DNA of 31,769 nucleotides from a virus, in the IMG/VR virus record IMGVR_UViG_3300034374_008893, positions 1 to 31,769 of that record; one strand, written 5' to 3'. The notes below the pieces were generated by a model that worked only from the letters and a program-made list of their open reading frames with translations, was not told where the DNA came from and did not search any database. The position numbers were made by a program, and so were the translations under genes. This document shows, one piece after another, positions 5,582 to 26,611 of this stretch. The first letter of the stretch is position 1. Each line of letters begins with the position of its first letter.

Positions 5582-6030
5582 TGACCCCTGTAGAAATAGC
5601 TCGCGACTGGATAGGAACGCCGTACCATCACCAAGAGAGCGTGAAGGCGGCAGGAACGGACTGCCTCGGCCTAATTCGCGGAGTGTGGCGCGAGCTGTAC
5701 GGTGCCGAACCGGAAGCACCGCCTCCGTACACACAGACTTGGGGCGACTACTCCAAGAGAGAGACGCTCCTCGAGGCCGCGTACCGGAACCTCGAACTGG
5801 TGGCCATGGCCGAGAACAAGAGGTTCGTGGTCAGGCCGAGAGACAAACACTGGGAACCCGGAGCCGTGCTGGTATTCCGTCGCACCCCCGGCGCCGTCGC
5901 CAAGCACTGTGCCATCCTCTCTGGAGACGAGAGCATGGTCCACGCCTATAGTGGTGTTGGCGTGCGGGAGACTAGCGTAGGTATTTGGGACAAGCGCGTG
6001 GCTGGCATATTCAGGTTTCCGGGCCACTGA
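5581..6030 (+). CDS. NlpC/P60 tail cysteine peptidase, GTA g14-like
   Basis: A 149-residue NlpC/P60-fold protein of the TIGR02219 phage type, equivalent to GTA g14. Catalytic Cys28 lies in 'GTDCLGLIRG' and a candidate His109 in 'AKHCAIL'; the length is typical. Such tail peptidases are thought to cut peptidoglycan peptides locally during DNA entry. I chose the ATG at 5581, which overlaps the upstream TGA as TGATG; an in-frame GTG at 5578 is an alternative that adds one residue. It follows the g13 homologue and precedes the megatron gene, the standard order. Confidence 0.9.
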   Translation: MTPVEIARDWIGTPYHHQESVKAAGTDCLGLIRGVWRELYGAEPEAPPPYTQTWGDYSKRETLLEAAYRNLELVAMAENKRFVVRPRDKHWEPGAVLVFRRTPGAVAKHCAILSGDESMVHAYSGVGVRETSVGIWDKRVAGIFRFPGH

Positions 6031-6048
6031 GCCGAAGGAGACACACGA

Positions 6049-9000
6049 ATGGCCACATACGTCTTAGGAGCTGTGGGTACAGCCATCGGCGGACCGATCG
6101 GCGGAGCAATCGGCTCCGCGCTAGGTAGCCTCATAGACGGCGCCATCATCGGAGCTCTCACTCCGGGCACCACCACGACAAACACAGGACCCCGACTGAC
6201 CGAACTCTCGTTGACGACGTCGACCGAGGGGGCGGTTGTTCCTCGCATATTCGGCAGGTGCCGCCTCGGTGGCCAGGTCATCTGGACTGCCCAGTTCAAG
6301 GAGACCGAGGTCGTCAACAGTCAGGAGAGCGGTGGCAAGGGAGGCGGGCCTACCCAGACCACCACTACCATCTCGTACGAGTATAGCCTCTCGTTTGCCG
6401 TCGCCTTTGCGGTCGGCAACCCTATGGCGCATCTCGGACGTGTGTGGATTGACAGCATCGAGACTGACCTCTCGAAGTTCAGCTTCAAGTTCTATCCGGG
6501 CTCAGAGACCCAGCAGCCCGACCCGACCATCGAGGCGATTGAGGGCTCGGGCAAGGTACCCGCCTACCGCGGCGTCGCGTATCTCGTGTTCGAGGACCTC
6601 CCCCTGGCCGACTACGGTAACCGCATGCCCCAGATCACGGCAGAGATCGTTGTACCGCTAGAGACTGACGAGGCTGACGACCTGACTAACATCGGCGAGG
6701 CCTGGCAGTTGATCCCCGCGACCGGGGAGCACATCTACGGCACACAGAAGTACACTCGGTCCGTGTCGAACAACTCCGGTGACGCGTCTAAGATCACCGA
6801 GAACATGCACAACAACTTCAACCAGCCTGACGTCGAGGTGTCGCTAGACATACTCGATCAGGTACAGCCGAACCTTGACGCGGTCTCGGTCGTTGTCTCT
6901 TGGTTCGGTACGGACCTCCGCGCCGGAGAGTGTCGTGTAATTCCGAAGGTAGAGGGACAGGACAGGTCCGTACAGCCGACCGACTGGGCAGTTGCGGGCT
7001 ACACCCGATCCACGGCGGAGCTAGTGAGCTACGACGCCGAAGGCAATCCCATATTCGGAGGCACTCCGTCAGACGTCACGGTCCGCGAGCTGGTGTCCCA
7101 CATCAAGAACGACCTCGGTAAGCGGGTAATGTTCTACCCGTTCATCCTCATGGACGTGCCGTCCGGCAACAGCCTTCCCAATCCGTATTCAGACAACGCG
7201 GCTTCCAACGGGCAGGCCGTGTTCCCCTGGCGCGGACGCATCACGTGCTCCCCGGCCCCGGGCTATGCGGGATCGCCGGACCAGACCGCTGCAGCGGCAA
7301 CCCAGGTCAACAACTGGTTCACGCGCACCGAGGGCTATAGGGCCATGGTGTTGCACTACGCCAACTTGCTCGACGACCTCATGGGGGCAGACGACGCGTT
7401 CGTCATTGGCTCGGAGCTCGTCGGCCTGACGAGTGTGCGTTCGAGCCCCGGCGCCGGTACTTATCCGGCCGTGACCCAACTCGCCACGTTGGCCGCCGAC
7501 GTATCGGCCATACTACCCGGCGACGTGAAGGTGAGCTACGCGGCCGACTGGTCCGAGTATCACTCGCACCGCCCGAACGACGGGACAAACGACGTCATAT
7601 TCAACATGGACCCCCTCTGGTCTTCGCCTCACATCGACTTCATCGGCATCGATAACTACCTGCCAATATCGGACTGGCGAGACGGTGCGGGGCACCTTGA
7701 CTATGACGCCGTCAACGGCCCTGTCTCGATATATGACAAGGACTACCTGGCCAGTAACATTGAGGGGGGAGAGTATTACGACTGGTTCTATGCCTCTACG
7801 GCTGACCGTAACAACCAGGTGCGGACGACGATCACAGACGGTGATCCTGCGAACGAGCCCTGGATATATCGCCAGAAGGACATTCGCAACTGGTGGCAGA
7901 ACGCCCACCATCATCGCCCGGGAGGGGCGCGTGTGAGCAGTAGCACTTCATGGACTGCCTCAAGCAAGCCTGTGTGGTTCACCGAGCTAGGAGCGCCGGC
8001 GATCGACAAGGCGACGAACCAACCAAACGTGTTCTACGATCCTAAGAGCTCCGAGAGCTTCTTCCCTTATCACTCAAGCGGTCAACGGGACGACCTCATA
8101 CAGCGTCTCTACCTTGAGGTCAGCCTGGCATATTGGAGGGACAACGGCGGGGCAATGATCGATCCGGCAAACATGTTCATCTGGACCTGGGACGCAAGAC
8201 CGTTTCCTGCTTATCCTAAACGGACCGACGTGTGGTCTGACGGTGCACAGTGGGTGCTAGGGCACTGGTTGTCAGGTCGTATCGATGGAGCCGTGCTGCC
8301 TCGTCTCGTTAGGAAGCTATGCCTTGAGGCGGGACTAGCCGACAGTCAGATAGACGTCGAGGGTCTGTACGGGCCAGAAGCTCTGGTTCGAGGCCTGCTG
8401 ATAGCGTCGAGCATGTCGGCTCGAGACATCATTGAGGCCTTATCGACGGCGTACCAGTTCAAGGGCTTCGAGAGCGAGGGCAAGATCAAGTTCGTCATGG
8501 ACATCAACCAGAAGTCTACGGAGCTACCGCTTGACGACCTCGTGTTGATAGGCGACGCGACTGCCCCGGTCACGGTGACACGCGGTCAAGAGACGGATTT
8601 GCCTAAGCGGGTAAACGTCTCGTACCTCGACGAGGTCAACAACTATCAGGCCGCCTCAATCGACGGACACAAGGGCACAGGCACTAGTCAAAACCAAATT
8701 GCCGTAGACTTCCCTCTCGTCTGGAGCGACGGCCAGGCTCGCGCGCTCGCGACCTCTTTGCTGTTCAAGGCATGGGCTGCACGTGAAAAGGGCGAGCTCG
8801 CTTTGCCTCATAGCTACATGTACCTCGACGCGGGTGACTTGGTCCGAGTGCCAGTAGGCAATCGCTCGGTCACTGGCCAGGTGTCAAACATCGACGACGG
8901 CATCGCGCGTCGTGCGGAGTTCGTCGGCTTTGACTTGTCCATTCTGTCGTCTCCCCGCTACGAGACCGACCTCAAGCTGCCGATAGTGACTGACCTCACA

Positions 9001-9981
9001 CCTCAGGTGGTGTTGCGTTTCATGAACCTGCCTCTCGTGTCTGAGGATGAGCTGTTGCCGTACTCTATGAGGCTGGCGGCAGGCGCCAGTGACGGAGCAT
9101 GGCCGGGCGGCGTAGCGGTCCTACAGAGCGATGGAGCCGGAGGCTTTTCGCCCGTGCAGACCGTGGCGAACAGGACGACGATGGGCGCTCTAAGCGGTCA
9201 ACTCTTCACCGGACCGACAAACGCCTGGGATCGCAACGGTGAGATTTACGTCAACATGCTGAGCGGCGGTCTCTCGTCACTGACGGAGGAGCAGCTGTTA
9301 CTGAGCAACACAAACGCCGTCGCCATCGAGAACACGGTTACCTCCGAGTGGGAGGTCGTGCAGTTTGCCAACGCGGACCTGCAGTCTTCGGGCGTTTATC
9401 GTCTGACAGGGCTGATACGCGGGCAGCTCGGCACCGAACATGTGATGCGAGACCCTTATCCTGTCGACACCCGAGTCGTTTTCATTAACACTGTCTCAGT
9501 GGAAGCCCTTAAGGTTAGCCGCAACGTGGCAACGAACGACACGCTTTATCGCTGGGGCCCTATAACCGTACCGACCGATGACGATCGCTTCGTAGAGGGT
9601 ACTCGTCGGAGCACGATCGCAGGCTTCCGGCCCTATTCGCCTTGCGATATGAGACTGCAGCTTGATACGTCAAACGATGACTTGACAATCTCCTGGAAGC
9701 GTAGAACCCGTCTAGGTGGAGACGACTGGGAACAGAACGAGGTTCCACTCAACGAGGAGAGCGAAGAGTACCGCCTCAGAGTGTATGACGACACTGGCGG
9801 GGCCCTGTTGCGGACAGAGGTACTTACCTCTCCCTCTTTCACCTATACTGCAGCCATGCAGACCGCCGACCATGGAACAACGAAGGCAGACGTCTTCCTA
9901 CGCGTCAGTCAGTACGGCACCGAGTACGGAGCCTACGGACCTGAGTTGGAGGGAATGTTCTTCACAAGGAGCACGACATAA
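6049..9981 (+). CDS. Baseplate megatron / host specificity protein, GTA g15-like
   Basis: A 1310-residue protein of the GTA g15 ('megatron', GTA_TIM plus phage-tail_3) type, a large tail-tip subunit that forms the central hub and contacts the host. The N-terminus is Gly/Ala-rich and membrane-active in look ('GTAIGGPIGGAIGSALGS'). The centre (about residues 400-760) has glycosidase-like TIM-barrel text such as 'DFIGIDNYLPISDWR', 'WFTELGAPAIDKATNQPNV' and 'MFIWTWDARPFPAYP'. The rest is a phage-tail_3-like beta region. Length matches the family (about 1300). A clear Shine-Dalgarno (gaaggag) precedes the ATG. It ends in a TAATG overlap with the DUF2793 gene. Confidence 0.93.
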   Translation: MATYVLGAVGTAIGGPIGGAIGSALGSLIDGAIIGALTPGTTTTNTGPRLTELSLTTSTEGAVVPRIFGRCRLGGQVIWTAQFKETEVVNSQESGGKGGGPTQTTTTISYEYSLSFAVAFAVGNPMAHLGRVWIDSIETDLSKFSFKFYPGSETQQPDPTIEAIEGSGKVPAYRGVAYLVFEDLPLADYGNRMPQITAEIVVPLETDEADDLTNIGEAWQLIPATGEHIYGTQKYTRSVSNNSGDASKITENMHNNFNQPDVEVSLDILDQVQPNLDAVSVVVSWFGTDLRAGECRVIPKVEGQDRSVQPTDWAVAGYTRSTAELVSYDAEGNPIFGGTPSDVTVRELVSHIKNDLGKRVMFYPFILMDVPSGNSLPNPYSDNAASNGQAVFPWRGRITCSPAPGYAGSPDQTAAAATQVNNWFTRTEGYRAMVLHYANLLDDLMGADDAFVIGSELVGLTSVRSSPGAGTYPAVTQLATLAADVSAILPGDVKVSYAADWSEYHSHRPNDGTNDVIFNMDPLWSSPHIDFIGIDNYLPISDWRDGAGHLDYDAVNGPVSIYDKDYLASNIEGGEYYDWFYASTADRNNQVRTTITDGDPANEPWIYRQKDIRNWWQNAHHHRPGGARVSSSTSWTASSKPVWFTELGAPAIDKATNQPNVFYDPKSSESFFPYHSSGQRDDLIQRLYLEVSLAYWRDNGGAMIDPANMFIWTWDARPFPAYPKRTDVWSDGAQWVLGHWLSGRIDGAVLPRLVRKLCLEAGLADSQIDVEGLYGPEALVRGLLIASSMSARDIIEALSTAYQFKGFESEGKIKFVMDINQKSTELPLDDLVLIGDATAPVTVTRGQETDLPKRVNVSYLDEVNNYQAASIDGHKGTGTSQNQIAVDFPLVWSDGQARALATSLLFKAWAAREKGELALPHSYMYLDAGDLVRVPVGNRSVTGQVSNIDDGIARRAEFVGFDLSILSSPRYETDLKLPIVTDLTPQVVLRFMNLPLVSEDELLPYSMRLAAGASDGAWPGGVAVLQSDGAGGFSPVQTVANRTTMGALSGQLFTGPTNAWDRNGEIYVNMLSGGLSSLTEEQLLLSNTNAVAIENTVTSEWEVVQFANADLQSSGVYRLTGLIRGQLGTEHVMRDPYPVDTRVVFINTVSVEALKVSRNVATNDTLYRWGPITVPTDDDRFVEGTRRSTIAGFRPYSPCDMRLQLDTSNDDLTISWKRRTRLGGDDWEQNEVPLNEESEEYRLRVYDDTGGALLRTEVLTSPSFTYTAAMQTADHGTTKADVFLRVSQYGTEYGAYGPELEGMFFTRSTT

Positions 9982-18202: not shown

Positions 18203-18637
18203 TTAAAATCCGGCCATGGCCCTGATTATGCTCGCAGCGCCGTCCTTCTCTCCTATGACCGAGCGTTCCGCCAGCCATACCTCCTGCACGCTCTTACGCA
18301 GAGCGGTCAGGTCCTCCCCTTCTAGCAGGTAGTGCCTGCGTTTATTCCCCGTGCCGACCCGAATGAGTAGCCAAGCAAGCCCTCCGACCTTACGCCTACG
18401 ACGCAGCCAGTCCATCTGGCGATCGGTTATCTTGACCTGAACTCCCCCTCGGGGACCGGGTTCCGGGCACGACTTGAGTTCGGTCCAGAAGCAAGAGCCG
18501 CGATAGCAGCCCTCCACGTCCGGACAGCCGACCTCCACCTCGTTCTCGACCCTGTGCATGTGCAGGTCTCGGCGGACCGGCTTCGCGCCGTCACGCAACC
18601 AGGCCCACAGGGCCTTCTCCTTGTCCTTCGTCACCAT
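18203..18637 (-). CDS. PD-(D/E)XK nuclease (VRR-NUC-like)
   Basis: A 144-residue protein with the core of a PD-(D/E)XK nuclease: Glu residues in 'VENEVEV', then 'GCPD' with Asp40, then 'FWTELK' with Glu53 and Lys55, followed by 'DRQMDWLRRRRKVGGLAWLLIRV', the usual Gln/helix end of the fold (key residues Q, W, GG, L). Such small phage enzymes act on branched or damaged DNA in recombination and repair; the exact substrate is unknown. The ATG at 18637 overlaps the end of the DHFR gene by 7 bases; a GTG at 18634 would give a 4-base overlap instead. Four Cys are present at 38, 44, 49 and 57. Confidence 0.75.
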   Translation of the reverse strand: MVTKDKEKALWAWLRDGAKPVRRDLHMHRVENEVEVGCPDVEGCYRGSCFWTELKSCPEPGPRGGVQVKITDRQMDWLRRRRKVGGLAWLLIRVGTGNKRRHYLLEGEDLTALRKSVQEVWLAERSVIGEKDGAASIIRAMAGF

Positions 18638-19092
18638 AAAAAAGCCCCCTGTCTCCAGGTCTCGACGTCCACGGAACCGACCTCAAACGACGCGTCCTTG
18701 TACCAGCTCGAGGCCAACACGCTTGAAAGCTCGTCGCGCTGCCCGGAGCCGAGCTGCACGCTCCGAGACCGACACACGTGTACGGAACGAACTAGGTTCT
18801 GCTCGAGGGCGTACAAGGCGAGCGTCTGACCGCCTAGCAGCGTGCAGTCAGGGCCGTGTCTCTGGACAAACGCCTCGAGACAGAAGTTCGAACGCGTTAT
18901 GCGAACGAGGCGCCGGCCCTCGAGGTGAGCGGGCATTAGGTCTAAGGTGCGGGCACTCGCTCCGCACACGCCTGAACCCGCTACAGTCAACAGCCTGAAG
19001 GCGAGCTTGTCGTCGCCCTTGAGCCACTCCATACGGTCGTCGGGGCCGCGTGACACGTATCCGTCCGACGATACTCCCATCACAAGCCTCAT
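18631..19092 (-). CDS. Dihydrofolate reductase-like protein
   Basis: A 153-residue protein with a DHFR layout. 'MGVSSDGYVSRG' is the first strand and loop. 'EWLKGDDKLAFR' matches the Trp-x-x-x-Asp helix with the catalytic acid. 'GASARTLDLMP' stands in for the NADPH-binding G-R-x-T-W region, 'LLGGQTLALYAL' for the GGxxxY motif. DHFR restores tetrahydrofolate after thymidylate-synthase-type methylation, which fits the TS-family gene nearby. The start at 19092 is chosen from GGAAGGAGACC before the ATG and the ATGA overlap with the dCMP deaminase gene. RibD C-terminal domains share the fold, so a related reductase cannot be excluded. Confidence 0.75.
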   Translation of the reverse strand: MRLVMGVSSDGYVSRGPDDRMEWLKGDDKLAFRLLTVAGSGVCGASARTLDLMPAHLEGRRLVRITRSNFCLEAFVQRHGPDCTLLGGQTLALYALEQNLVRSVHVCRSRSVQLGSGQRDELSSVLASSWYKDASFEVGSVDVETWRQGAFLW

Positions 19093-19529
19093 GGCAGGTC
19101 TCCTTCCCAGTTCACGACCTCGACGCTGCACTCCCGGAGTGCATCGCGGCCCTCTAGGTGGTGCCGCTTCCAGCGGCCGTCGAACGGTGGCGGAGACACG
19201 ACGCGGACAATCCCCGCCTGTATCATCGCCGCCGAGCAGTGAGCGCAGGGGCAGGTGGTCGCGTACATCGTCCAGCCGACGACCGATCGCCCTGCGTTAA
19301 GTATGGCGTTCAGCTCAGCGTGTACGAGGTGATAGTCCTTGAACTCCAGCTGAGTGATGCGCTCGTCCGTGTCCTCCATGCCTCGCGGCAGGCCCGAGAA
19401 GCCGAGGGAGAACCCTCGGCGATCCGGGCTGACGACACACGCACCGACGCCGAGGTCGGAGCCCTTGACCCACGACCGGGCTTCGACGGCGAGACGCATA
19501 AATCTAATGTCCCATTTGTTATTTTTCAT
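19089..19529 (-). CDS. dCMP deaminase (deoxycytidylate deaminase)
   Basis: A 146-residue zinc deaminase converting dCMP to dUMP. The zinc and catalytic residues are plain: His70-Ala-Glu72 in 'VHAELNAIL' and Cys95/Cys98 in 'CPCAHC'. The segment 'GFSGLPRGMED' and the fold order fit dCMP deaminases of phages such as T4. The ATG has GGAGAACAAAC before it and overlaps the HNH gene end by 11 bases; the 3' end overlaps the DHFR gene by 4. In this block it would supply dUMP for thymidine and would also compete for dCMP with the TS-family enzyme. Confidence 0.9.
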   Translation of the reverse strand: MKNNKWDIRFMRLAVEARSWVKGSDLGVGACVVSPDRRGFSLGFSGLPRGMEDTDERITQLEFKDYHLVHAELNAILNAGRSVVGWTMYATTCPCAHCSAAMIQAGIVRVVSPPPFDGRWKRHHLEGRDALRECSVEVVNWEGDLP

Positions 19530-19890
19530 GTTTGTTCTCCATGTAAGAGACTATGCTTTTCAACTCCTCTAAAGAGGCGTCGCCCTTTATCTTGTTTGCC
19601 CGCCAGCTTATAATAGCAACATTGCCCTTCACATAACCCGTACGATTGTCAAGTCTGTCGAGGGAAGCCGAGTTAGGTTGTCGGCCCAAGCCTGTTCCGG
19701 GGTATGAAAGCTTGAGCCCTAATACTGGACAGTGTGTTGGAGCAACACCTAAGTCTTCTACTGTAAGCGCAAAATCGACAGAGTATATGCGAGCCCGGTC
19801 CCTCGCATTTTTCAATAGGCTAGATAAGGGGTTGTTTTGCCGCCATCTACGAGCGGCTGCTCTTTGTTTTTCCGGGCTCGCTGAACTCAT
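19519..19890 (-). CDS. HNH-type endonuclease (free-standing homing type), copy 1
   Basis: A 123-residue protein with the small phage HNH layout: basic N-terminus, 'CPVLGLKLSY', then 'SLDRLDNRTGYVKGNV' and 'ISWRANKIKGDASLEEL'. The middle His/Asp/Asn elements fit an HNH or endonuclease VII-like fold. These genes usually spread by cutting a homologous allele lacking them. It sits between the TS-family and dCMP deaminase genes. One sampled line gives 48 percent GC, well below the flanking genes, which suggests recent arrival. The start at 19890 follows a GGAGG-containing stretch. A related gene lies at 25464-25838. Confidence 0.78.
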   Translation of the reverse strand: MSSASPEKQRAAARRWRQNNPLSSLLKNARDRARIYSVDFALTVEDLGVAPTHCPVLGLKLSYPGTGLGRQPNSASLDRLDNRTGYVKGNVAIISWRANKIKGDASLEELKSIVSYMENKHEK

Positions 19891-19892
19891 GT

Positions 19893-20783
19893 CTATTCTA
19901 CGACCTCCGGCATGGGGTCCCACGAGTTCGAGGCCGCACGCTTCGCGAGGCGCTTGACCGTGTCGCAGTAGGCCTCGGGGTCTCCGAGGATCATCTCTAT
20001 GGACCAGCCAGGCAGGTTGGGCTGCACGCCCGTCGCCCAGTGGGAAGAGGCGCCCTTGAGCATCTCACGTTCGCGGGCGTCTTTGGGACGCGGGTCCATG
20101 TCGAGACACGCCTTCGTCGCGTTCCAGTGCGTCTCGTACAGGTGCGCATGCGCCAGCGAGAAGTGCAGGCTTCCGGGCTTGCAGTCCGTGCTGGCTGCGA
20201 TCGCGTCTAGCGTGAGAGCGTAGGCCATCACGTCGTAAGGCAGACCGACGAACAGGTCTGAGGACCGGACGTACACGCTCATGTGCAGGTCGTCGTCGAA
20301 CCGGTTTATGGCGAAGCCGAGAGGGCACGGAATGTTCTTCGGCTGTACGCCTCCGAGGCCGTCACAGCGGGGGTCCCAGGCAGACACGAACAGCTGTCGG
20401 TTGGTCGGGTTGGCCTTGAGCTGAGACACCGCTCGGCCTATCTGGTCACGTTCGAAGGCCTCACGCCATCGCCACCCGTAAGCCGTCTTGAGCTCGCCGT
20501 CCTCGACGAACTTGCTCCACAGCTTGGGAGCCTTCGACAGGATGAACTTCGGGTCTTTGGTCCCCATGAACTGCCAGGCGGTCTCCGCGGCGGCGATGTG
20601 CGGGTAGTATCGACGGTTGCCGGCCATGGGGATCGTACCCTCGCGCAGGTCGAGGGTGAAGGCATGGCCTCCGGGCACGACCTTGATGCGTGACTTCGTC
20701 CGTTCGTTCACCTCCTCGAACCCCTGGTTGAGGGTGTTGACGAGCAGGCCCCGATAGGCCTCGTGGAATGTCTGTCGGTTCAT
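19893..20783 (-). CDS. Thymidylate-synthase-family enzyme, predicted dCMP-acting (methylase or hydroxymethylase)
   Basis: A 296-residue ThyA-fold enzyme. Aligned by eye with E. coli TS at a constant offset of 7: catalytic Cys153 ('NIPCPLGF') for Cys146; Arg173-Ser174-x-Asp176 for Arg166/Ser167/Asp169; His214 and Tyr216 ('HAHLYETH') for His207/Tyr209. Two positions differ. Asp184 in 'GLPYDV' replaces Asn177, the residue that reads uracil, and Pro154 replaces His147. Asp at this position marks dCMP hydroxymethylases such as T4 gp42. The usual hydrophobic TS C-terminus is also missing (the end is 'PEVVE'). I infer action on dCMP; a diverged dUMP enzyme remains possible. It overlaps the kinase-fusion gene by 4 bases (ATGA). 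Confidence 0.82.
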   Translation of the reverse strand: MNRQTFHEAYRGLLVNTLNQGFEEVNERTKSRIKVVPGGHAFTLDLREGTIPMAGNRRYYPHIAAAETAWQFMGTKDPKFILSKAPKLWSKFVEDGELKTAYGWRWREAFERDQIGRAVSQLKANPTNRQLFVSAWDPRCDGLGGVQPKNIPCPLGFAINRFDDDLHMSVYVRSSDLFVGLPYDVMAYALTLDAIAASTDCKPGSLHFSLAHAHLYETHWNATKACLDMDPRPKDAREREMLKGASSHWATGVQPNLPGWSIEMILGDPEAYCDTVKRLAKRAASNSWDPMPEVVE

Positions 20784-21802
20784 GACAAGTCTCCCAGCAG
20801 GCGTTTGACCAAGGTGTCCACGTTGTCACGCAGCTGAGCCTCAGTGCCGTTGTTGTCGATGACGAAGTCAGCCATCCAGGGCTCGACGGTGCAGGAGCTT
20901 GCGTCCTCGGGAGGCAAGCGGTCCGAAGCATCGACCCAGATGCAGACGTCGAAGCCGCCCACGTTTTTCAGTCCGTTAAACTCGCGCTTGTTGCGGAGAC
21001 CGCAGTATACGTCGTGCTCCTCGAAAATCTCGCGGCCGAGGCGAGCTGGGTCTTCGGCGCAGTACTCCGAAATGGCTTCGAACCAAGCGGCTCTGTAATT
21101 AGCACGGTCGTCGAAGCACTCCTTTGCCGTTTTGTAGGGGCCGGGTCCATTGTACTCAGCGTCTTGCTCAGCGCAGATTGCCATGGCGCGATCGATAGTC
21201 GGCATGACTACGCGCTCTGCGCAGAACTCCGAGCTAGACGTGAACCGGAAGCCGTAGACGTCACGTAGACGCTCACACACAGTGTCCTTGCCGTGCCGAC
21301 CGTGGCCGAGCACCAAGACCTTCGGCAGGACCTGACGGACAGGTAGCTCCGGAGCCGTCGAGAGCTCACCCTCGTCGGTCAACAGGCCCATGAAGCGCAC
21401 GTCTTCCTGCGTGATGCGGAGGTAAGGCGCGAGGTCGGGGGGCGTCCATCTCTCGGGCTTGACGGCGTCGAAGCCCTTGCTGTTCGGCCGCTTGGACAGC
21501 TCACCTCGTACCTTGCGCATGTTCGCTCCGTGCACCTCCTCGAAGAGAGGCCGCGGACAGAGACCCATCTCCACCAGGCGTCCAAGCGCGAAGTAGGTCA
21601 AGTCGATGAGCGCGTCTGCCTCGCCGTCTATGTCTCCGGCGTCCTTGAACTCGGTCAGCTCCTCGTTCAAAGCGGACAACGCCCACTCCTTGCGTTCGGG
21701 GCTCAGTCGCTCCGGCTCCTTCGGGATGGGTAGGCCGAGAATGTCGCGAGCGAAGCGCTCGGTCATCTCAGCGAAGTCCGCAATCATGTCTGTTCTCTTC
21801 AT
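20780..21802 (-). CDS. MazG-like NTP pyrophosphohydrolase fused to deoxynucleoside monophosphate kinase
   Basis: A 340-residue two-domain protein. Residues about 1-125 fit an all-alpha MazG-like NTP pyrophosphohydrolase: metal-binding EELTE (Glu47, Glu48, Glu51) and 'EADALIDLTYFALG' (Glu61, Asp63, Asp67). Residues about 158-340 fit a phage dNMP kinase: Walker A 'GHGRHGKDT' at 166-174, as in the GKDT motif of T4 gp1, and 'GREIFEEHDVYCGLRNKREF' further on. The first domain could hydrolyse a dNTP to dNMP, the second phosphorylate a dNMP. ATGA overlaps on both sides couple it to the glycosylase and TS-family genes. The ATG at 21802 follows AAAGGAAAGTAGC. Substrates are inferred from context only. 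Confidence 0.8.
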   Translation of the reverse strand: MKRTDMIADFAEMTERFARDILGLPIPKEPERLSPERKEWALSALNEELTEFKDAGDIDGEADALIDLTYFALGRLVEMGLCPRPLFEEVHGANMRKVRGELSKRPNSKGFDAVKPERWTPPDLAPYLRITQEDVRFMGLLTDEGELSTAPELPVRQVLPKVLVLGHGRHGKDTVCERLRDVYGFRFTSSSEFCAERVVMPTIDRAMAICAEQDAEYNGPGPYKTAKECFDDRANYRAAWFEAISEYCAEDPARLGREIFEEHDVYCGLRNKREFNGLKNVGGFDVCIWVDASDRLPPEDASSCTVEPWMADFVIDNNGTEAQLRDNVDTLVKRLLGDLS

Positions 21803-22224
21803 GCTACTTTCCTTTCTCGCACGTACCAGTTCAGTTTGCCATCGTTCGGCTCGACGTCGTCGCGCTTCTCGATGAACAGGGCCCAACTGTCTGCAGCATA
21901 CTTGCCACAGCCGGGCAGTCTCATGACGTCGTCCGACGTCCTTACCTCCGAGCTGAAGACCTGAGCCATGCCGGTCAGGGTCTTCGCCCTTCGATTGTAT
22001 AGCCCCAAGGGGGCCAGCGTCTGAGCCATCGCTTCAAGGGGCGCTCTCGCGAGCGCGTCCTGCGTCGGATAGGACCGACGGAGCTCGTGGAACACGGGCT
22101 CAGCGGCGGTCCACGTCGTTAGGTTGACTAACTGGCATGCGACAAGCATCCAGAACGGGTCGGAGCAGAGGTCCTCCTGGAAGAGCGTCCCCTTGCGCGG
22201 CACAGCTATCTTCGTCGTTCCCAT
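21799..22224 (-). CDS. HhH-GPD DNA glycosylase, MBD4-like
   Basis: A 141-residue protein resembling the catalytic domain of vertebrate MBD4. Shared text includes 'DPFWMLVACQLVNLTT' (MBD4 has DPW-LLIA-LNRT), 'LAPLGLYNRRAKTL' (PLGLY-RAKT), 'LPGCGKYAADSWALF' (the helix-hairpin-helix, G-GKY-DS) and 'VEPNDGKLNWY' with Asp128 as the likely catalytic residue (MBD4 'PEDHKLNKY'). MBD4 removes T or U from G:T and G:U mismatches, especially after 5-methylcytosine deamination. ATG at 22224 is used; a GTG at 22233 would add three residues, and neither has a strong Shine-Dalgarno. It overlaps the upstream gene by 125 bases and the kinase-fusion gene by 4. Confidence 0.8.
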   Translation of the reverse strand: MGTTKIAVPRKGTLFQEDLCSDPFWMLVACQLVNLTTWTAAEPVFHELRRSYPTQDALARAPLEAMAQTLAPLGLYNRRAKTLTGMAQVFSSEVRTSDDVMRLPGCGKYAADSWALFIEKRDDVEPNDGKLNWYVRERKVA

Positions 22225-22567
22225 AGTTCTCACACACCATCATGATCTCGAGGTAGGTCACTATCATCGATACGACCCCCACGACTGAGCCGCAACGCAC
22301 GGCCCGCGTCTTGACGACCGGGTAGAAGGCCTTCTTCGTCTTCTCGTCTCGTAGGACGAACAGGCTTCCTCCCTGTCTCGTGTCCCTGAGGTGCTTACCC
22401 TCCTTGTTCCAAAGTCTCCGTTCGTGTTCGATGTACGTCGCCTTCGCGTCGTCAAAGGCGAGCCCGTACCTCTCCATGAGCCTGAACATGGAGTGCCTAC
22501 GTGCCCTGAACCTGTGCTCCTTCAACTCTCGCTTGACGATCGCGTCCTCAAGCGGCGAAGGGATCAT
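22100..22567 (-). CDS. Hypothetical protein overlapping the glycosylase gene
   Basis: A 155-residue protein I do not recognise. The first 110 residues look like a real fold: a basic helix ('RELKEHRFRARRHSMFRLMERYG') and then strands ending at 'VVGVVSMIVTYLEIMMVCEN'; key features are the Arg-rich helix and the hydrophobic strand. The last 40 residues lie within the glycosylase coding region and look like low-constraint sequence, so the functional part may end near residue 115. The start at 22567 is inside the end of the upstream gene by 20 bases. Confidence 0.55.
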   Translation of the reverse strand: MIPSPLEDAIVKRELKEHRFRARRHSMFRLMERYGLAFDDAKATYIEHERRLWNKEGKHLRDTRQGGSLFVLRDEKTKKAFYPVVKTRAVRCGSVVGVVSMIVTYLEIMMVCENYGNDEDSCAAQGDALPGGPLLRPVLDACRMPVSQPNDVDRR

Positions 22568-24009: not shown

Positions 24010-25471
24010 TTTCCATGCTCCTCAAGAAATTCTTCAGGCCCCTGCCGCTCAGGTAGTCCGCGGTCTGAGCCTTCTCCTCTTGTTTCTCCAGTATACGCTC
24101 GTCGGGTGTACCGAGAGCCACCAGGTCGGCCACTCCGATCCTGCGTCCCCCGAGCTGCGTGGCCCTCTCGTCGGCCTGCTTCCGCTCGATCGCACTGAAC
24201 GTGTGGCTGAACCAGACAATGTCATCTCCAGCCGACAGGTCTAACCCCTGTCCACCTGCTCGCGGCTGACCCACGAACTCGGTCACGGACGGGTCGTTCT
24301 GGAACGCGTCAATCGCGTCTGAACGCTCGTCTGCCTTCGTGCCTCCGTGATACTCCACGAAGTTACGCCCCATGCGACGTAGCAGCTCGGTGACCAGGCG
24401 TATTTCCTCTCGGAAGCGACACCAGATTATCGTCTTGCCTCGAGCGAGTATGAGCTCAGCCCTCAGGGCCTCTAGCCTCGGGTTCAGCTCCGGTTTGACG
24501 AGCTGGTGGATGTCTCCGTCCTCGTCGACCACGTAGCCCGACGATACCTGCTGCAGCCTGATGACCAGGGCGCCTCCGTCTGACGGGCTGACGTGCTCGC
24601 CGCTCTCGAGGCGTTGCATCATGCCATCGACCAGGTTGTCGAAGACCTTGCGTTGCTCGGGCAGCATCTCGAACGGTCGAGCGGCCCTGATGAGCTCGGG
24701 CATGTCGTCGCAGTCCTCTCTGAGCACGACGGACGACCACTGAGCCATGCGCTCACGGAGCTCCTCCTGGTTGACGTACTCGGAGATGACCTTGTAGGTG
24801 CGCTTCGTCTTCCAGTTGCGCTTCTCTTCCTCGACGGCGTAGCGGTCCTTGAAGTCCTGATAGCGAGTGAACCCTAAGGCCCCCTTGCTGAGTATCTCAT
24901 ACTGTGAGAAGGCTTTGAGCGGGCTCTCGTCGACTGCCGTCCCGCTGAGTATCCGGCGCATCGCCGTCTTGCTCTCGAGCGCACGGACGGCTCGAGTGCG
25001 CTTAGCCCCCGGAGTACCGAACTCGTGGCTCTCGTCAACGACGAGCAGCACCCTCTTGCGGGATTTCAGGAACTCGGCCACGGCCTGCTTACCGACCTTC
25101 GTCTGAAAGGCGTCACAGTTGACGGCGAACCAGGCCAGCTTGTTGGAGGCCTTGAAGTGTGCGAAGGCCTCGCGCCAGGACACGTTCCGTGCCTTGACGG
25201 CGTTCCACACCATCTTGCAGTGTGGCACTTCCCTCCAGTGATGCTTCGGGAGCTCGCGTATTATCCAATTGACGTGAACGCCGTTGGGAGCAATAACGAG
25301 CACGCCGTCTAGCTCCCGGTACCGCGCGTTGTAGCAGGCCGTGTCGATGACGGCCTTCGTCTTCCCCGAGCGCATTTGCCAGAGTAACGCCCGGGCCTCA
25401 TCGTCTCGGTGCAGTTCGAACTCACGTAGCTGGTGTCTGTAGGGCGGAAATACAAAGGGATAGTCAGCCAT
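24002..25471 (-). CDS. SNF2-family DEAD/H helicase
   Basis: A 489-residue superfamily 2 helicase with SNF2 features. 'YRHQLREFEL' is the Q-like motif, 'LLWQMRSGKTKAVID' is Walker A (GKT), 'LLVVDESHEF' is the DESH box, 'ILSGTAVDESP' is motif III. In the second RecA domain 'KTIIWCRFREEI', 'EYHGGT' and 'QPRAGGQGLDLSAGDDIVWF' with 'QADERATQLGG' form motifs IV-VI. Phages use such ATPases as remodelers or helicases in replication and recombination. It overlaps the HNH gene end by 8 bases, and GCGGAG precedes the ATG. Length is near the phage norm of 450-550. Confidence 0.9.
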   Translation of the reverse strand: MADYPFVFPPYRHQLREFELHRDDEARALLWQMRSGKTKAVIDTACYNARYRELDGVLVIAPNGVHVNWIIRELPKHHWREVPHCKMVWNAVKARNVSWREAFAHFKASNKLAWFAVNCDAFQTKVGKQAVAEFLKSRKRVLLVVDESHEFGTPGAKRTRAVRALESKTAMRRILSGTAVDESPLKAFSQYEILSKGALGFTRYQDFKDRYAVEEEKRNWKTKRTYKVISEYVNQEELRERMAQWSSVVLREDCDDMPELIRAARPFEMLPEQRKVFDNLVDGMMQRLESGEHVSPSDGGALVIRLQQVSSGYVVDEDGDIHQLVKPELNPRLEALRAELILARGKTIIWCRFREEIRLVTELLRRMGRNFVEYHGGTKADERSDAIDAFQNDPSVTEFVGQPRAGGQGLDLSAGDDIVWFSHTFSAIERKQADERATQLGGRRIGVADLVALGTPDERILEKQEEKAQTADYLSGRGLKNFLRSMENV

Positions 25472-25838
25472 TGCGAAACTCCGCTACGACTTCGTCATCC
25501 CAGTCTAGCTTAACGAGATTGTAGATATAGCTTACAACGCGTACGTTGTCGCGGGTGTAGCCTTCTCCCGGTTTTATCTGGTCAAGAGAAGGCTTCCAGG
25601 GATTGCGTTTGCCCGGACCGCTCCATTCCCAAGAGAGCGGATGACCGGTGACTGCGCACCTCATGGGCGCGTACAGCTCTTCGAAGTCTTCAAGCGTCAA
25701 CTCAAACTTTCGACCCTTTTTCAATGCCCTTGAGCGAATGTAGGAGAACTCGCAACGTATCGGGTTGCGAGCTTTCCACGCGTTGTTTGAGAGCTGACGT
25801 GCAGTCGCTTTAATGGGCAGTGACGTACCTGTACTCAC
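25464..25838 (-). CDS. HNH-type endonuclease (free-standing homing type), copy 2
   Basis: A 124-residue protein with the same plan as the HNH gene at 19519: an Arg/Lys helix ('SYIRSRALKKGRKFELTLED'), 'CAVTGHPLSWEWSGPG', then 'PSLDQIKPGEGYTRDNVRVV' and a C-terminal helix. One sampled line gives 47 percent GC, lower than the helicase and HD genes around it. It starts at a GTG with CAGGAG before it and overlaps the HD gene end by 29 bases and the helicase start by 8. Probably a mobile gene inserted between two core genes. Confidence 0.72.
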   Translation of the reverse strand: MSTGTSLPIKATARQLSNNAWKARNPIRCEFSYIRSRALKKGRKFELTLEDFEELYAPMRCAVTGHPLSWEWSGPGKRNPWKPSLDQIKPGEGYTRDNVRVVSYIYNLVKLDWDDEVVAEFRNG

Positions 25839-26370
25839 GGAGGAACTCCTGTTCGGCCTGGTCAGGCGACCAGAACTGTACGTTCACGCCGAGCGGCTCG
25901 AGACCATCTACGCCCCACACGTTCGTGCTCGGGTTCATCGCCTGCGCTCGCTCGTCCACGAGGATGCGCGTGTCGATCTCCTTGAGCCACGGTGGGAACG
26001 GGTACTGCACCTCGAAGTGAGCCATAACGAAGCCGTCAATCGACGCCTCCATGGCCTTGTAGTCTTCGAGGAAGTTCTTGACCGGGCGTACAACGTCGCT
26101 GAGGTACGCCTCGGAGGCGTCGTGCAGCAGCGCGACCTTGCAGTCGTCAATCGTGCGGTCTGCCTGGCCGGACACCCAGCGAGACATGAGCACGCAGTGC
26201 TCGGCCACCGAGTAGAACCGACGCGTGTGACCATTGTAGCGACACATCTTGCTGAGTGCTGCCGCCACGTCCTCGATGCAGATGGAGCCGGCGTCCAGGT
26301 GAGCGTAGTTGAACTGTCGACCCGAGTTGGTCTCCATCCATGCGGTCTCTGCGCTGCTGAAGTCACCCAT
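25810..26370 (-). CDS. HD-domain phosphohydrolase (YfbR/DatZ-like)
   Basis: A 186-residue HD hydrolase of the type common in phages. 'RQFNYAHLDAGSICIEDVA' opens the domain, then 'MCRYNGHTRRFYSVAEHCVLMS' supplies the first His residues, and 'ALLHDASEAYLSDVVRPVK' holds the His-Asp pair and a later Asp. Relatives act as 5'-nucleotidases or dNTP triphosphohydrolases (for example DatZ, a dATPase of Z-genome phages). Here it may trim a nucleotide pool; which one cannot be told. The start at 26370 is chosen because the longer frame runs through the upstream gene, which it otherwise overlaps by 8 bases. Confidence 0.8.
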   Translation of the reverse strand: MGDFSSAETAWMETNSGRQFNYAHLDAGSICIEDVAAALSKMCRYNGHTRRFYSVAEHCVLMSRWVSGQADRTIDDCKVALLHDASEAYLSDVVRPVKNFLEDYKAMEASIDGFVMAHFEVQYPFPPWLKEIDTRILVDERAQAMNPSTNVWGVDGLEPLGVNVQFWSPDQAEQEFLREYRYVTAH

Positions 26371-26611
26371 CGTACTCAACCCCTGCCGCCTTCGCCATTC
26401 CGTTGACGAGGTCGATCTTCTCTTTGATGTGTCCGGGCGGGTTGCCGCCGTTCCTGTTGCGTATCCAGCGAGAGGCCCGCTTAGCCGCATGGGACGCAGC
26501 CCTCGGCGTGTATCCCTGCTTCGCTGCGTGGGTGAGGACCTTAGCCATCACTCCTGGATCGGCCTGAGCTCCGGCGATGAGGTCACTCGCGGCTTGTTGT
26601 TCGGTCTGCAT
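26363..26611 (-). CDS. Hypothetical small helical protein
   Basis: An 82-residue Ala-rich, basic, helical protein ('VLTHAAKQGYTPRAASHAAK', 'RASRWIRNRNGGNPPGHIKE'). No family is recognised. The basic middle could bind nucleic acid. It has a very good Shine-Dalgarno (AAGGAGACAGACA before ATG) 12 bases after the DNA polymerase stop and overlaps the HD gene start by 8 bases. Confidence 0.65.
   Translation of the reverse strand: MQTEQQAASDLIAGAQADPGVMAKVLTHAAKQGYTPRAASHAAKRASRWIRNRNGGNPPGHIKEKIDLVNGMAKAAGVEYDG

Follow-up and report, generated by a model that had tools for sequence, protein, structure and literature searches.

MBD4-like phage DNA glycosylases appear, from their sequences, repeatedly beside or together with three kinds of cytosine-C5-modifying enzyme in several separate lineages, and this is the main new result of our analysis. 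It grew out of a six-gene cluster on the minus strand (18631-22224) of a 31.8 kb IMG/VR virus fragment, IMGVR_UViG_3300034374_008893 (hereafter the window, meaning the whole stretch analysed). All six genes have named family matches: a glycosylase, a MazG-kinase fusion, a thymidylate synthase (TS)-family enzyme, an HNH endonuclease, a deaminase and a dihydrofolate reductase (DHFR). We consider it likely that the cluster specifies a pathway like that of Xanthomonas phage Xp12, in which 5-methylcytosine (5mC) replaces all cytosine in phage DNA, with the glycosylase as an accessory. The case draws on which genes are present and how they are ordered, on active-site residues that are conserved, on the predicted glycosylase fold and on co-occurrence in several lineages, and, in relatives, on the all-5mC DNA, deoxycytidylate (dCMP) methylase and 5-methyl-dCTP deaminase activities of Xp12 and the DHFR activity of phage AXL1.

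An MBD4-like phage glycosylase and its partners

The first gene of the cluster encodes a 141-amino-acid HhH-GPD DNA glycosylase (21799..22224; PF00730, 9e-8; ATG start at 22224, with a GTG at 22233 also open). Its best PDB sequence match is MBD4 (1e-14, residues 12-137), EndoIII (2e-5) and Mig (6e-4) being much weaker matches, and the 16 best PDB folds for its AlphaFold2 model (mean confidence, pLDDT, 90.5) are all MBD4 (TM-score about 0.8), including complexes with G:T and G:5-hydroxymethyluracil (5hmU) DNA. The segment GKY...NDGKL aligns with GKY...EDHKL of MBD4, keeping the Tyr, the catalytic-type Asp (MBD4 Asp560) and the Lys two residues on. The modelled fold and these residues identify an MBD4-like enzyme, and thymine excision is the predicted activity; MBD4 also acts on G:U and G:5hmU. 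A two-pattern scan of genome_contigs confirmed no bacterial relatives of the glycosylase, and matches in records named as Listeria, Enterococcus and Staphylococcus phages were set aside as unannotated, EndoIII/MutY-like and possibly host DNA.

Scanning IMG/VR with a glycosylase profile yielded 35 loci. The DNA fetched around 20 of them held a TS-family gene, and all 18 readable ones carried Asp at position 177 (E. coli TS numbering). Two types were present, the window type with Asn three residues before the catalytic Cys (the Cys-3 position) and the T4 type with Asp there and an NSNYG motif; signatures of T4-type dCMP hydroxymethylases occur in loci L056, L060 and L063, and also in L055, where the sequence ends before residue 177. 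The remaining partner is a DNA C5-methyltransferase. Its open reading frame (ORF) in L053 (6468-7892) is overlapped by 4 bp by that of the glycosylase (5974-6471), a Mig-like pairing, and it lies about 0.6 kb from the glycosylase in L054 and about 0.9 kb in L045. Mig itself, a thymine-DNA glycosylase of microbial origin, is accompanied by a 5mC methyltransferase. In cyanophage S-TIM54 a related glycosylase is encoded and, elsewhere in the genome, an Asp177-type TS; the L062 and L068 contigs make a weaker case, with divergent TS-like genes that have Asp in the 177 column elsewhere on the contig and, for L062, an ordinary Asn177 TS as well. Photolyase loci (readable TS all Asn177) and uvsX loci (all Asp177, T4-like) showed no MBD4-like glycosylase, a comparison that is lineage-biased and no random control.

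Judged by these signatures, the three kinds of partner are putative dCMP methylases and T4-type dCMP hydroxymethylases, both working at the nucleotide level, and DNA C5-methyltransferases. It seems to us an even call whether several unrelated phage lineages indeed carry a dedicated MBD4-like G:T/G:5hmU glycosylase within cytosine-C5-modification cassettes, that is, a virus-encoded base excision repair linked to modification.

Two of these loci have further features. The L045 contig (IMGVR_UViG_3300005937_000429) holds at 8085-9506 a TS-family gene of 529 amino acids with an apparent intein directly before the catalytic Cys (KDIP/CLAGST...AHN/CTVAM); without the intein, the enzyme would have Asp at Cys-3 and Asp177. 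In L060 (5950-9560), the glycosylase and the T4-type dCMP hydroxymethylase are followed by an ORF (8862-9560) that looks glycosyltransferase-like by eye, a hint that 5-hydroxymethylcytosine (5hmC) might be glycosylated there.

A predicted dCMP methylase paired with DHFR

The TS-family enzyme of the window (19893..20783; 296 amino acids; PF00303, 3e-38) has its catalytic Cys at position 153. Aligned with solved TS, T4 gp42, the phage M6 enzyme and the clade of its relatives, its Asp184 occupies the column of Asn177 in E. coli TS and of Asp179 in gp42. Every aligned clade member has Asp at this site, so that the Asn characteristic of deoxyuridylate (dUMP)-type synthases is absent. An Asn-to-Asp change at position 177 gives a dCMP methylase, according to work cited in PMC8670742. 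The latter paper finds that, among domains, TS shows the strongest association with modified phage DNA, Asp177 being the residue that marks modified contigs and position 147 the second; at 147, His is replaced by Pro in the window enzyme. It also reports that TS, PRA-PH, dCMP deaminase and MafB19-like deaminase domains co-occur on modified contigs, those contigs having 5hmC-based modification, and the window has Pfam matches to all four domains. Together, these residues support dCMP rather than dUMP as the likely substrate.

Another residue bears on the product. Hydroxymethylases are marked by an Asp (or Glu) at Cys-3, and the T4 mutant D145N yields no 5-hydroxymethyl-dCMP (PMC6400193). T4 gp42 has Asp there, as do all 15 of the readable 5hmU-type (Yuavirus-type dUMP) enzymes, whereas the window enzyme has Asn150, and Asn is found throughout its clade. 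Because the Asp required for hydroxymethylation in T4 is Asn150 in the window enzyme, reductive methylation of dCMP is the favoured reaction.

The DHFR gene (18631..19092; 153 amino acids) points the same way. It is divergent, recognised by a PHROG profile (phrog_13578, 7e-35) and without a Pfam or PDB match in profile and sequence searches, and it is homologous to the DHFR of AXL1, which is functional by trimethoprim assay. Each of ten complete relatives carries a single ThyA-family gene, the cluster TS, and no ThyX; the DHFR is thus left without another phage partner and pairs with the cluster enzyme. Asp184, Asn150 and a DHFR paired with the sole TS-family gene jointly favour reductive dCMP methylation. 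An initial annotation of this DNA, made from the letters alone, had picked out Asp184, proposed dCMP as the substrate and argued from the DHFR, as folate recycler, for methylation over hydroxymethylation. The alignment bears out the residue and its invariance supports the substrate, while the single ThyA-family gene and missing ThyX in the relatives make the DHFR argument stronger than it was.

In annotations, enzymes with this Asp177 signature go under the names thymidylate synthase, 'ThyX-like' and deoxyuridylate hydroxymethyltransferase (RcRudolph, L032; AXL1, L002; Bradleyvirinae generally), where the residues indicate dCMP. The label dUMP hydroxymethylase, given to all Mesyanzhinovviridae in PMC11946847, we rejected for the window branch on the strength of Asp184 and Asn150.

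Remaining genes and layout of the cluster

Between the glycosylase and the TS-family gene lies a 340-amino-acid protein (20780..21802; phrog_38514) in which a MazG-like NTP pyrophosphohydrolase domain (PF01503, 4e-11; EExxE...ExxD motif) is fused to a P-loop domain resembling deoxynucleoside monophosphate (dNMP) kinases (phrog_139, 2e-10; GHGRHGKDT). Fold comparison placed DR2231 and T4 dNMP kinase (1dek) among the best matches, with weak E-values (2e-3 for 1dek). DR2231 is the closest solved MazG structure, and in the PDB it is bound to dUMP and dUMPNPP.

The deaminase gene (19089..19529; PF00383, 3e-19; phrog_174) encodes a dCMP-deaminase-family protein with Trp at the position of W128 in the Xp12 enzyme, also W128 in AXL1 gp62; the same Trp occurs in other deaminases. 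We predict from its sequence that it converts 5-methyl-dCTP (or 5-methyl-dCMP) to dTTP (or dTMP). A 5-methyl-dCTP deaminase would explain how dTTP is supplied in a phage whose only TS makes 5-methyl-dCMP.

The glycosylase, MazG-kinase, TS, HNH, deaminase and DHFR genes are transcribed in that order, followed by a nuclease-like gene directly downstream of DHFR (18203..18637; minus strand; phrog_2165, called DNA helicase, with a weak RecU-like match), which trails DHFR in nearly all relatives. The preferred starts of MazG-kinase (ATG 21802) and DHFR (ATG 19092) each create a 4-bp ATGA overlap with the preceding stop codon. Such overlaps occur at three junctions (glycosylase/MazG, MazG/TS and deaminase/DHFR), which suggests coupled translation. 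Between TS and the deaminase, the operon is split by the HNH endonuclease gene (19519..19890; phrog_3322), a probable mobile gene; a related gene occupies this site in L020 and PaMx28, and the RDJL phages are without it. A second HNH gene of the same family lies at 25464-25838, and both are likely mobile. Near it, in the replication block, is an HD-type deoxyribonucleoside 5'-monophosphatase (25810..26490; minus strand; phrog_318, 8e-59), a possible additional pool enzyme that could shape the dCMP/5-methyl-dCMP pool.

The initial annotation had listed five genes here. Each part it named is present at the coordinates given, well above chance, including the MBD4-like glycosylase and the fused dNMP-kinase-like domain; it overlooked the HNH gene and the deaminase, and leaving out the latter made its pathway incomplete at a central step.

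Conservation in related phages

The named phages closest to the window, at both DNA and protein level, are Roseobacter phages RDJL Phi 1, 2, 3 and 6 and Ruegeria phage Tedan (TS identity 61-68%), followed by Bradleyvirinae of Xanthomonas, Stenotrophomonas, Pseudomonas and Janthinobacterium. The gene order DHFR, deaminase, TS, MazG is kept in most named relatives, among them RDJL Phi 2, AXL1, Donnerlittchen, DoCa6, YB23, PaMx28 and DLP4. In AXL1, DoCa6, YB23 and Donnerlittchen the glycosylase gene lies directly upstream of MazG, as in the window. A comparison of AXL1 with DLP4 is instructive: the flanks match at 85-94%, and the glycosylase gene between them is cleanly missing in DLP4. The MazG-kinase fusion occurs in the Roseobacter-phage-like branch.

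A candidate pathway for 5-methylcytosine

In the pathway we propose, the MazG domain would lower dCTP (and/or dUTP) and yield dCMP. The TS-family enzyme, through Asp184, would convert dCMP and methylene-tetrahydrofolate to 5-methyl-dCMP and dihydrofolate, and DHFR would regenerate tetrahydrofolate. The fused kinase, with host kinases, would phosphorylate 5-methyl-dCMP up to 5-methyl-dCTP for the phage polymerase to place opposite G, and the deaminase would divert part of the 5-methyl-dCTP (or -dCMP) to dTTP (or dTMP). Finally, the MBD4-like glycosylase would excise T (or U) from the G:T (or G:U) mismatches left by deaminated 5-methylcytosine (or cytosine).

Alternative explanations

The same genes could be read as an ordinary thymidylate supply for a phage with plain cytosine, the deaminase making dUMP, the TS making dTMP, DHFR recycling the folate and MazG removing dUTP. 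This set does fit the classical dTMP pathway, the authors of AXL1 annotated the genes in this way, and the closest MazG structure was solved with dUMP and dUMPNPP. Nevertheless, dUMP is strongly disfavoured by the Asp that all members have in place of Asn177, the His-to-Pro change falls on the second position that marks modified contigs, and AXL1 DNA withstands most restriction enzymes with G/C in their sites, only 5 of the 31 tried having cut it; we judge a plain thymidylate role quite improbable. Scarcely better placed, and still unlikely in our view, is a T4-like 5hmC pathway in which the TS-family enzyme turns dCMP into 5-hydroxymethyl-dCMP and the glycosylase takes out 5hmU paired with G. 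It gains from the Asp shared with T4 gp42, from the activity of MBD4 on G:5hmU and from a Thr placed two positions ahead of the catalytic Tyr, which fits the hydroxymethylase pattern. It is difficult to reconcile with Asn150 at the site where D145N abolishes hydroxymethylation in T4, with a DHFR that would be superfluous when no other TS exists in the ten complete relatives, and with the 5mC of Xp12, which belongs to the genus of AXL1 and DoCa6; moreover, no glycosyltransferase was recognised among the scanned window genes.

Several observations weigh against the 5mC pathway with an accessory repair enzyme as we have drawn it. By analogy with its homologue, the substrate of the MazG domain may be dUTP instead of dCTP, and the kinase domain is missing from MazG proteins of the AXL1 type, with no P-loop in the AXL1-like C-terminus. 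RDJL, Tedan, PaMx28, DLP4 and RcRudolph carry the cluster without the glycosylase and, because most close relatives are without the gene, it is dispensable across the phage family. The intercalating Arg468 of MBD4 is Leu in the window enzyme. The L051 and L066 contigs, both fragments, show no partner enzyme, and the co-occurrence consists of counts over few lineages without a random control rather than a statistical test. Spontaneous deamination of 5mC proceeds at a rate near 6e-13 per s, from which we estimate about 0.002 deaminations per genome per day (about 63 kb, 59% G+C, about 37,000 5mC); with so little deamination per infection, any benefit must come via long-lived virions, single-stranded stages or something else. 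It is accordingly possible, if on balance doubtful, that the cytosine pathway is right and the glycosylase has another job, such as removing U from G:U (also an MBD4 substrate), dealing with a lesion specific to the phage or attacking the DNA of the host or of a competitor; the gene's absence from most relatives, the rarity of deamination within one infection and the lost Arg468 would all suit this. Neither a general uracil role nor host attack, however, predicts the repeated pairing with three kinds of cytosine-C5-modifying enzyme. That the glycosylase protects C5-modified phage DNA is plausible and unproved.

Implications

The cluster offers gene-level candidates for each step of an Xp12-type 5mC pathway. 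It also yields a residue test for phage genomes: Asp177 combined with Asn at Cys-3 points to a predicted dCMP methylase, Asp177 combined with Asp at Cys-3 to a dCMP hydroxymethylase, and many such enzymes are annotated as thymidylate synthase. Cytosine-modifying phages may carry their own repair for a mutagenic by-product, and small stand-alone MBD4-like enzymes become available for study. The gene combination had initially been thought undescribed, which is partly right: the glycosylase gene of AXL1, gp65 (ENDO3c), was reported in 2022 as shared only with Xp12, and no repair role for deaminated 5mC was proposed for it (PMC9206674). As far as the literature searched shows, that role for a phage MBD4-like glycosylase has not previously been proposed.

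Comparison with known systems

The initial annotation had taken T4 as the model. A nearer precedent is Xp12, which has all-5mC DNA, comes from the same extended family and has relatives that carry the same cluster. Xp12 belongs to Bosavirus with AXL1, DoCa6 and DLP4. Its enzymology dates mostly from the 1970s-1980s, and in 2020 its pathway genes were announced for publication elsewhere. Published work reports a dCMP methylase in Xp12-infected cells, an Xp12 5-methyl-dCTP deaminase that makes dTTP and for which residue W128 is named, and a bacteriophage-induced 5-methyl-dCMP kinase. Our comparison runs through AXL1 and DoCa6 and the published sharing of gp65 between AXL1 and Xp12, rather than through Xp12's own sequence (MT664984); a published Xp12 primer had no match in IMG/VR. 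We take the phage that induces the reported kinase to be Xp12. AXL1 and DoCa6 share with the window the order glycosylase, MazG, TS with Asp, deaminase and DHFR. The window differs in its MazG fused to a P-loop kinase, which the AXL1 type lacks, in the inserted HNH gene and in a TS only about 39% identical to that of AXL1.

T4 (gp42, gp56, gp1) likewise has a dCMP-specific TS-family enzyme, a pyrophosphohydrolase and a dNMP kinase. However, the window enzyme lacks Asp at Cys-3 and is matched weakly by gp42 (8e-5), and a MazG domain stands where T4 has gp56. Yuavirus M6, which hypermodifies thymidine through a dUMP hydroxymethylase, belongs to the family of AXL1 and shares a TS-family enzyme and a dCMP-deaminase relative, yet has Asn at 177 and Asp at Cys-3, the reverse of the window pattern. 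As to repair enzymes, the window glycosylase has the predicted fold and catalytic Asp, Tyr and Lys of MBD4, to be compared also with the thermostable thymine-DNA glycosylase Mig (1kea); it differs from MBD4 in standing alone, without a methyl-CpG-binding domain, and presumably from the Mig and EndoIII folds in lacking a C-terminal Fe-S region. The pathway appears to work like that of Xp12 and probably belongs to the same kind.

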